Assembly (NCBI GenBank): GCA_947453445.1
Contig: CANGGP010000009.1
Location: forward strand, 1-64,000
Direction of reading: 5' to 3'
Length of the DNA: 64,000 bases
Source: Sphingobacteriaceae bacterium
Lineage (GTDB): Bacteria; Bacteroidota; Bacteroidia; B-17B0; Aurantibacillaceae
Shown: piece after piece, positions 24,585-39,258 of the stretch
Layout: every line of letters starts with the position of its first letter
How positions within the stretch are numbered: position 1 is the first letter of the stretch
Program-made: the position numbers and the translations under genes
The notes under the pieces: model-generated
What the model saw: the letters and a program-made list of their open reading frames with translations, nothing else
What the model was told of the DNA's origin: nothing
The model's database searches: none

Positions 24585-24664
24585 TAATTAAATATTTAGC
24601 ATAAATATACGTAGAGAATTAGGATTGATAAAGATGTGTTTTTTTGTGATTAATTAATGTATTA
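24585..24664. other. Start of a 588-bp gene-free region
   Basis: The gap from 24585 to 25172 has no supportable gene. Its first 80 nt are AT-rich and would hold the promoter of the - strand peptidase; the rest is two modular repeats, a 75-nt AT-rich centre (24830-24903) and the rpsF promoter. Confidence 0.6.
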
Positions 24665-24830
24665 TTTGGGCGCCTCCGTGAAGCAGAAAAAACATCAATT
24701 TTTCTCGAAGTTTTTCTGCTTCACGGCCGGGCTTTTCGCTTCAAGTCCTCGCACCTGCGCTATCGCTTCGGTGCTGTGGGCTTTCCGCTGCAATCCCTGG
24801 CGCGGAGATCCGGTTCAAAGCACTTATTCA
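24665..24830 (+). repeat. Modular hairpin repeat, copy 1
   Basis: This copy begins TTTGGGCG, then a 16-bp perfect stem (24676-24691 with 24711-24726, CCGTGAAGCAGAAAAA and its complement), then the constant box CCGGGCTTTTCGCTTCAAGT, a second hairpin (GCACC...GGTGC) and a second constant box TGTGGGCTTTCCGCTGCAAT. It is inverted relative to copy 2, the two separated by about 75 bp. It has no plausible protein. Confidence 0.85.
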
Positions 24831-24902
24831 GGTAAAATTAATCTAGATTTCAAAGCTAATTCATTCAAAAATTTAAGTGATACAGAATCACATCGAATTT
24901 AA

Positions 24903-25052
24903 AGGACACTAACTGCGTTAGGGATTGTAGCGAAAAGCCCACAGCTGCGAGGCTATGCTCGCAGCGAGGACTTGTAGCGGAAAGCCCGACCCCTGAAGCG
25001 AAAAATGCCGAATGTTTTCGAGGTTTTTCGCTTCAGGGGTAACGCCCAAATA
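24903..25052 (-). repeat. Modular hairpin repeat, copy 2
   Basis: Read on the + strand it holds GATTGTAGCGAAAAGCCCAC, the 8-bp stem GCTGCGAG/CTCGCAGC (loop GCTATG), GAGGACTTGTAGCGGAAAGC, then a 17-bp perfect stem (24989-25005 with 25024-25040) and ends CGCCCAAAT. The constant boxes match copies 1, 3 and 4; the long stem has a different sequence in each copy. It lies about 70 nt upstream of the rpsF promoter. Confidence 0.85.
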
Positions 25053-25119: not shown

Positions 25120-25150
25120 TTTGGGAGTTTTAATAAAAGTAGTATATTTG
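25120..25150 (+). promoter_or_regulatory. Promoter of rpsF-rpsR-rplI
   Basis: TTTG (25120-25123), a 19-nt spacer, and TATATTTG (25143-25150) match the Bacteroidota consensus exactly. The spacer shares GGAGTTTTAATAA with the rpmB promoter at 39259. Confidence 0.8.
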
Positions 25151-25172: not shown

Positions 25173-25547
25173 ATGGAAAAACGCTATGAGACGGTCTTCA
25201 TTTTAACTCCCGTTTTGTCTGATGATCAGGCAAAGGAGGCCGCAAAAAAAATTAAAAAAACCATCACCGATTTAGGAGGTAAAATCGTGAATGAAGAGCA
25301 TTGGGGCCTAAGAAAATTGGCTTACCCAATTCAAAAGAAAACAACAGGTTTTTATCACCTATTAGAATTTGCCGGTAGCGGCGAAGAAATTGTAGGCAAC
25401 CTGGAATTAACTTTTAAACGCGATGAACGCATTCTTCGTTTCTTAACTGTTGCATTAGACAAGCACGCTGCGGCATATGCCGATAAACGCAAAGGTTTAG
25501 TGTCGGAAGGCAAAACAAAGAAAAAAGAAACTGCAAGCACCAACTAA
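25173..25547 (+). CDS. rpsF: 30S ribosomal protein S6
   Basis: A 124-residue S6, which pairs with S18 on the 30S platform. The N-terminus [19 protein letters not shown] and the central [20 protein letters not shown] are canonical. The C-terminus has a basic extension ([16 protein letters not shown]), common in Bacteroidota. It is the first gene of rpsF-rpsR-rplI, a conserved operon; 12 nt separate it from rpsR. Confidence 0.97.
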
Positions 25548-34618: not shown

Positions 34619-35506
34619 TTAGGCGTAAATTTCTTTTTTCGCTGCCAACAATGTATTCATTAACAAGGATGCAATGGTCATGGGTCCTACACCGCCCGGT
34701 ACCGGTGTAATGTAACTGCACTTAGGCGCCACTTCATCAAATTTTACATCGCCTTTTAATTTAAAGCCGCTTTTTGTTTCGGGTGCTGCAACGCGGGTGG
34801 TGCCAACATCAATTACAACTGCGCCTTCTTTCACCATGTCGGCTTTTAAAAATTCAGGAATGCCTAAAGCGCAGACAATGATGTCGGCATTTAAGGTGTG
34901 TGATTTTAAATCTTTGGTTTTACTGTGGCAAAGGGTAACTGTACAATTGCCGTATTTGGTGTTTTTTGCCAATAAAATACTCATTGGTGAGCCTACAATG
35001 TGGCTGCGACCAATCACCACGCAATTTTTACCGCCGGTTTCAATGTTATATGCTTCAAGCAATTTAGTGATGCCATAAGGTGTGGCACTAATGTAACTTG
35101 GTAAATTTAATACCATGCGACCTAAATTAACAGGATGAAAGCCATCCACATCTTTTTGCGGCAAGATGGTTTCCGTTACCTTGTGTTCGTTGATGTGTTT
35201 TGGTAAAGGCAATTGTACAATAAATCCGTCAACATCCGAATCGTTGTTTAAGCCCACAACGGCTTCCAGTAACTTTTCTTCTGAAGTATCAGCCGCAAAG
35301 CGCAATAAGGTAGATTTAAAACCAACGTTCTCACAAGCTTTAATTTTCGCTGCTACATAAGTTTCACTGCCGCCGTCGTTGCCAACCAAAATAGCTGCCA
35401 AATGCGGTTGTTTATGTCCGGTGGCTACCAAAGTTTTTACCTCGGCTGCAATTTGTTCTTGAATTTCAAGCGATATTTTTTTTCCGTCGATGAGTTGCAT
35501 AGTCAT
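34619..35506 (-). CDS. folD: Bifunctional methylenetetrahydrofolate dehydrogenase/cyclohydrolase
   Basis: A 295-residue FolD interconverting 5,10-methylene- and 10-formyl-tetrahydrofolate, supplying one-carbon units. [16 protein letters not shown] (catalytic Lys in the AAKIKAC stretch), [45 protein letters not shown] (Rossmann loop) and [18 protein letters not shown] are family signatures. Two in-frame ATGs (35506 and 35500) are possible; both precede the conserved LIDGKKIS. It is a single gene, with repeat-rich DNA just upstream of its start. Confidence 0.96.
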
Positions 35507-38873: not shown

Positions 38874-39016
38874 TGTCCTTTTGATTGGTAATTGCGTGAG
38901 GGTTCCGATAACTATCGGAAGCAGCGCCTGCCTGCCGGTAGGCAGGGAAAGCCCGACCCCTAATATTGAAAGGCTTCCGGGTATTTAAACGGCCTTTCAA
39001 TATTGGGGGGCACGTC
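38874..39016 (-). repeat. Modular hairpin repeat, copy 4 (variant)
   Basis: The copy runs from the ribD stop. It contains GATTGGTAATTGCG, the palindromes CCGATAACTATCGG and CCTGCCTGCCGGTAGGCAGG in place of the second hairpin, the constant GGGAAAGCCCGACCCC box, and a long stem (CCCCTAATATTGAAAGGC with GCCTTTCAATATTGGGG). It ends GGGGGGCACG. Orientation matches copies 2 and 3. Confidence 0.8.
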
Positions 39017-39026
39017 CTAGAATAAA

Positions 39027-39180
39027 GTCTTTAAGGTTCTTTTGACCTGGCTTTTGCGCTAGTGATTGTAGTGGAAAGCCCACAGCTGCGAGGCTCTGCT
39101 CGCAGCGAGGACTTGGAACGGAAAGCACGGTGGCGTGCAAGCTTCAAAAAAACAATAAAGGCTTGCACGACAAGCGCCCA
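39027..39180 (-). repeat. Modular hairpin repeat, copy 3
   Basis: It opens AGTCTTTAAGGTTCTTTTGA, like the start of copy 4 at the ribD end, then GATTGTAGTGGAAAGCCCAC, the 8-bp stem GCTGCGAG/CTCGCAGC (loop GCTCTG), GAGGACTTGGAACGGAAAGC and a 9-bp stem (39134-39142 with 39161-39169) and ends GCGCCCAAA. The middle boxes match copy 2 closely. The rest of the 38874-39327 gap holds AT-rich sequence and the rpmB promoter. Confidence 0.85.
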
Positions 39181-39258
39181 AAAAAATAGCGAAAATGGTC
39201 GATTTGATTAAAACTTTTGCAATTTTGTATCCTTAAAATTCAAAAATCGGAAATAAAG

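Follow-up and report, generated by a model that had tools for sequence, protein, structure and literature searches.

An inverted pair of structured repeats upstream of rpsF probably belongs to a dispersed, REPIN-like mobile DNA element of which Flavo-1 is one arm

Two structured elements, A on the plus strand and B on the minus strand, lie in front of rpsF with their 3′ ends toward each other in the 64-kb stretch of DNA analysed here (the window), which raises the question of what such a pair is and whether it serves the neighbouring gene. The initial annotation reported two facing elements with boxes and hairpins at this place, and this description was confirmed by the sequence, box counts against shuffles, the folding z and a covariance model. 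At no more than one mismatch, the window has five occurrences of GGGCTWTYCGCT where 0.81 are expected, a count reached in 0 of 100 shuffles, and the 401-nt pair has a folding z of −15.8 relative to shuffles. The covariance model, made solely from the copies of other genomes, recovered both elements as well as two further copies (Table 1), the fourth of which has small palindromic insertions within box 1 and ahead of its 3′ end. The long hairpins had been described as perfect (16 and 17 bp) but unrelated. Their stems are indeed perfect, but they show a weak kinship that the annotation had missed: the two stems share 40 identical positions against a shuffle mean of 30 and maximum of 37 (500 shuffles), and both contain TGAAGC..AAAAA/TTTTT..GCTTCA.

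Table 1. Positions in the window of the paired elements, the further copies and the neighbouring gene
Feature	Position	Strand	Basis or remark
Element A core, GGGCG...GGCGC	24668–24803	+	Covariance-model match 24664–24807 (adds 4 flanking bases on each side), 77.8 bits, E 3.2e-17
Element A P1 5′ strand GCGCC, partner GGCGC at 24799–24803	24670–24674	+	Sequence and P1 covariation
Element A arm P2, perfect 16-bp stem 24676–24691 / 24711–24726	24676–24726	+	
Element A box 1 GGGCTTTTCGCTTCAA	24729–24744	+	Sequence
Element A upper P3 hairpin AAGTCCTCGC...GCTGTGGGCTT	24743–24783	+	With the boxes, the Flavo-1-like part
Element A box 2 GGGCTTTCCGCTGCAA, then TCCCT and P1 3′ strand	24778–24793	+	Sequence
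Rfam RF01705 match over element A	24721–24806	−	31.3 bits, gathering 42
Element B core	24915–25047	−	Covariance-model match 24911–25051, 82.7 bits, E 2e-18
Element B P1 5′ strand GCGTT, partner at 24915–24919 (AACGC on the minus strand)	25041–25045	−	Sequence and P1 covariation
Element B arm P2, perfect 17-bp stem 24989–25005 / 25024–25040	24989–25040	−	
Element B box 1 GGGCTTTCCGCTACAA	24972–24987	−	Sequence
Element B box 2 GGGCTTTTCGCTACAA	24925–24940	−	Sequence
Rfam Flavo-1 (RF01705) match covering element B (antisense to its drawn orientation)	24907–24995	+	37.7 bits, E 1.6e-6, gathering 42
Third copy, P1 GCGCT/AGCGC	39056–39179 (match 39052–39183)	−	Covariance model, 66.1 bits
Fourth copy, degenerate, beside the third	38894–39017 (match 38890–39021)	−	Covariance model, 21.4 bits
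TATATTTG, candidate −7 box of the likely rpsF promoter	25143–25150	+	Downstream of the pair
rpsF, neighbouring gene	25173–25547	+	ORF

Compared side by side, the copies measure ~80–200 nt and have a common layout: after a flanking WTTT come GGGCGNN, the P2 arm, (T/C)CGGGCTTTYCGCTNCAA, GTCCTCGC ... GCTGTGGGCTT and TCCGCTNCAATCCCT NNCGC, and an R follows the last base. Each element is predicted to fold as a three-way junction, in which a short closing stem, P1, pairs the first bases of the element with the last; the other two arms are P2, which varies freely, and P3, a long imperfect hairpin. Neither the closing stem nor the place of the Flavo-1 hairpin as one of three arms was part of the initial annotation. 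In 110 of 146 copies, GG and an exact reverse complement of the five final bases are found upstream; 500 shuffles gave 21.9 on average and 36 at most. This control keeps the kinship between copies in, yet the pairs vary widely in type (GCGTT/AACGC, GCGTG/CACGC, GCGCC/GGCGC, GCGCG/CGCGC, GGGTG/CACCC, GCGCT/AGCGC and GCATT/AATGC). P1 is kept through compensatory change. In a 30-row alignment, 95.9% of the cells are paired and 11 of 23 pairs carry double changes, values reached by 0 of 500 shuffles, with slid controls 32–59% paired; because the rows were picked for P1 complementarity, this figure is no independent test of P1. P3 takes two main forms, GTCCTCGC..GCTGTGGGC and ATCTTTTTG..CAAAAAGGAT, with G-C swapped for U-A at the same columns. 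In a MAG labelled Chryseobacterium gleum (L144, L151, L171, L211 and L217), the P3 arm contains a further repeat, TGTCTGAACCATGATTTTCTGGATTTAAGGATG.

The arms change independently of the rest of the element. In one congener (G017), copies with common MITE flanks and a common P3 (146 of 159 aligned positions identical 3′ of P2) have P2 arms that differ completely. Conversely, two copies of the present genome (contigs 33 and 146) have P1, P2 and box 1 (83/86) and the right flank (82/90) in common and differ in P3. A P3 stem is predicted in both orthologous copies on two Moraxella plasmids despite many changes. This exchange between near-identical copies supports the earlier suggestion of a replaceable stem and makes the element a clear natural system for palindrome arm exchange. 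Template-switch correction of palindromes would be expected to yield stems that are perfect yet change in sequence, and the stems here may stay perfect because palindromes are corrected or replaced in this way.

P3 and both boxes match the Rfam family Flavo-1 (RF01705) over the full model (alignments 1–76), on the opposite strand, and the long hairpin that marks this family, with its paired boxes and its internal loops, is present; the suggestion to test Flavo-1 was therefore the right one. A copy elsewhere in the genome (C14:29586–29673) scores 62.3 bits, above the gathering threshold of 42. At this curated threshold the window itself gives zero Flavo-1 matches, and its copies, whose match on the opposite strand is real, are sub-threshold relatives. 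Flavo-1 was catalogued in 2010 as a candidate RNA and judged "probably RNA" (Weinberg et al. 2010, PMC2864571). The annotation's statement that the family was not recognised is thus half right: the core was already known, whereas the literature searched yielded no description of the full element, of its mobility as DNA or of the exchange of its arms.

The presence of the element is lineage-specific. By the covariance model, this genome has 28 copies at E ≤ 0.01 and 37 at E ≤ 1, and 33 of 40 congeners are positive, with 0–75 copies each. The many genome-wide copies and the compensatory changes in their stems bear out the proposal that the structure is kept by selection or by transposition. In a phylum-wide sample under strict filters, 48 of 296 genomes are positive at E ≤ 1e-4. 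The exact 24-nt box is present in genomes of Flavobacteriales, Sphingobacteriales, Chitinophagales and Bacteroidales, and also in two spirochaete MAGs, the binning of which is taken as given. About 90 plasmids carry the element, nearly all from Bacteroides, Phocaeicola and Parabacteroides; they include p5482 and pBF9343, well-studied Bacteroides plasmids on which this widespread repeat is open to testing. Full copies are present on plasmids of Bacteroides, Phocaeicola, Moraxella catarrhalis and M. ovis, and a degraded one on an Acinetobacter plasmid, and among 2.9 million viral contigs only 1–2 have exact boxes. This plasmid and Moraxella spread goes beyond the initial annotation. In a Tannerellaceae MAG (L202 3533–3700), the element box continues into GAGAGGAAAGTCC..., which resembles the start of bacterial RNase P RNA and possibly marks an insertion or an assembly join.

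The copies avoid genes (8 of 101 within an ORF vs 74% of random positions in the same loci), and their orientation relative to neighbouring genes is random (18/14/13/11). The left flank is [AT]TTT (WTTT), which is the only common flank of stand-alone copies in other genomes, the right end is followed by A or G, and no target duplication was found at stand-alone copies. Inverted pairs with the 3′ ends inside occur at eight loci of G025, in the window and in G033 and G032, and the opposite arrangement occurs 0 times. In Foetidibacter luteolus, near-identical copies lie within unrelated flanks, and unrelated flanks around the same element are seen across orders. Collectively, gene avoidance, random orientation, the WTTT flank, inverted pairs and unrelated flanks indicate a dispersed mobile repeat and not a gene-bound RNA.

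We therefore regard the pair as probably two copies of a dispersed mobile DNA repeat that is structured, non-autonomous and REPIN-like, with Flavo-1 as one of its arms. The element would spread as DNA in the manner of REPINs, served in trans by an enzyme that reads its folded shape, that is, the conserved boxes and the junction; for the stand-alone copies, we hold with moderate confidence that such an enzyme moves them. At times, the element may instead hitch-hike inside another transposon, as in G017. Several results stand against this explanation. The mobilising enzyme was not found at the RAYT loci or among 150 neighbouring proteins, where no transposase stands out and the 25 commonest families are all housekeeping, and no autonomous copy with a gene inside an arm occurs in the loci examined. 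A precise empty site was likewise not found: joining the flanks of the window pair, and likewise those of the G017 MITE, led to no intact empty copy, the flanks of the Acinetobacter and Moraxella plasmid copies gave none, the joined-ORF test gave no convincing interrupted gene, and the intergenic flanks of congeners fail to align. A replication-strand bias, first suggested by nine consecutive copies on one strand in G257, was not borne out by GC skew in four complete genomes. It is possible, though on balance doubtful, that the repeats form a class of mobile DNA not recognised before. The piece that moves would then be the folded three-way junction, whose boxes stay fixed while its arms exchange freely; the enzyme acting on it in trans would be other than RAYTs and the known TIR transposases, and the class would extend over Bacteroidota, Spirochaetota and Moraxellaceae plasmids.

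It is unlikely that the elements are REPs or REPINs moved by a RAYT (TnpA-Y1, HUH) transposase, perhaps of subclass 2.6, although inverted pairs, hairpins, intergenic position and missing target duplications make up the layout of such repeats. Subclass 2.6 has been described, in a text without sequences, as flanked by "atypical secondary structures" in Bacteroidetes (PMC6006769). In G009 (L096), copies lie near a 2.6-type gene, and a copy in G050 (L065) adjoins a subclass 1.2 gene. However, among 51 Y1_Tnp loci drawn from 60 relatives, only three (L096, L065 and L111) have a copy within ~3–5 kb at E < 0.01, with L106 marginal; Y1 occurs in 38 of 48 element-bearing and 172 of 248 other genomes, which amounts to no association over the 296 genomes; and G261, G277 and G349 have at least 11 copies each and zero Y1. 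A GTAG or CGTC foot is also absent. Systematic linkage to RAYTs was rejected on the locus scan and the lack of co-occurrence. As a separate observation, the present genome has a subclass-1.2-type Y1 transposase gene (YIDNQEEHH; L035 700–2600, G000:C25, around 34709–35053) that is flanked several times by CTGTTTTGCCTCTCTGAGGCAAA, a separate REP-like family.

A functional small RNA or cis-acting RNA, in line with the Rfam entry and its published assessment, would also fit the conserved boxes and the covariation. We nevertheless find this reading improbable, given that copy number ranges so widely among congeners, that orientation to genes is random, that the site is not conserved and that the element is carried inside a MITE. 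In addition, F. psychrophilum Flavo-1 matches lie "indistinctly" sense or antisense to transcripts, without strand preference, and many fall outside transcripts (PMC9723704). If the family is read as mobile DNA, a candidate RNA listed for 15 years would become one arm of a mobile repeat, which would explain transcripts that made no sense.

Similarly improbable is the proposal that the element is merely a passenger copied inside larger TIR transposons (MITEs), of which the stand-alone copies are remnants. In G017, ~20 copies do lie inside a unit (L310–L333) with imperfect TIRs (GGGTCAAGCGGAA.. / GGATCAATCGGAA..) and 7–8 bp target duplications (16 of 19 vs 1.25 shuffled), and the ends of this MITE read GGGTCAAGCGGAA../..TTCCGATTGATCC. 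This unit shows hitch-hiking in a TIR element as one dispersal route, so that some dispersal need not be the element's own. In contrast, stand-alone copies have no common flank past WTTT and no duplication, and lie in unrelated flanks across orders.

We consider it very unlikely that the element is a folded-DNA site for recombination or transfer, whether a boundary of plasmid modules or a single-strand element of leading regions. In relatives of p5482 (L265 4086–4092; L270, L271 and L272), homology stops exactly at the 3′ end of the element, with differing DNA beyond, which indicates that the repeat also acts as a recombination boundary. Several plasmid copies are near a recombinase gene or the antirestriction genes ArdC and ArdA; closeness to the antirestriction genes is frequent among plasmid copies (L264, L268, L269, L274 and L276), and their region is the first to enter in conjugation. 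However, ordinary homologous recombination between repeats yields the same breakpoints, and such neighbours are lacking around the chromosomal copies, which make up the great majority. Finally, a terminator or regulator of rpsF or the divergent gene can be set aside as extremely improbable: strong hairpins do lie between the two divergent genes, but no T-run follows them in either sense, orientation to genes is random, the likely rpsF promoter, with TATATTTG, which we take to be a Bacteroidota-type −7 box, lies downstream of the pair, and none of the 29 congeners examined has the element upstream of rpsF, a promoter region of ~80 bp being the sole conserved part there. According to the mobile-repeat explanation, the pair serves no purpose for rpsF and does not act as its switch; that congeners lack the element at this site had escaped the initial annotation.

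The preferred reading, a mobile repeat with exchangeable arms, can be placed among known systems as follows. Flavo-1 has a homologous P3 hairpin with both boxes, but it covers only one of the three arms and is drawn for the other strand; it includes neither P1 and P2 nor the inverted pairing, the exchange of arms or the proposed mobility of the element. Like REP, BIME and REPIN sequences, the copies are short extragenic palindromes of high copy number, without autonomous members and with inverted pairs in one preferred arrangement. Unlike them, they form a three-way junction instead of a single hairpin, show no consistent RAYT linkage, and start WTTT|GGGCG and end CGC|R in place of a GTAG (CGTC) foot. 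The resemblance to MITEs of TIR transposons lies in non-autonomous dispersal and in the TIR and target-duplication unit around the G017 element, whereas stand-alone copies have no long TIRs and no target duplication, which belong to the larger G017 unit only. Integron attC sites share folded single-strand hairpins, internal loops, plasmid carriage and, in some copies, GTT/AAC-like ends. The invariant AAC/GTT core is missing, however: the P1 3′ strand starts AAC in 44 of 146 copies and otherwise CAC, GGC, CGC, AGC, TGC or still others, P1 covaries as CAC/GTG, GGC/GCC, CGC/GCG and other pairs, and gene cassettes are absent. Single-strand transposition often leaves a replication-strand bias, which was not found here (19 of 46 copies on the G-rich strand), but the fixed short 5′ target (WTTT) without duplication is that of an IS200/IS605-like single-strand transposon. 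We file the element as an "extragenic palindromic mobile repeat" and not as a REP, a MITE or an attC site, the features that define these three being ones that it fails.
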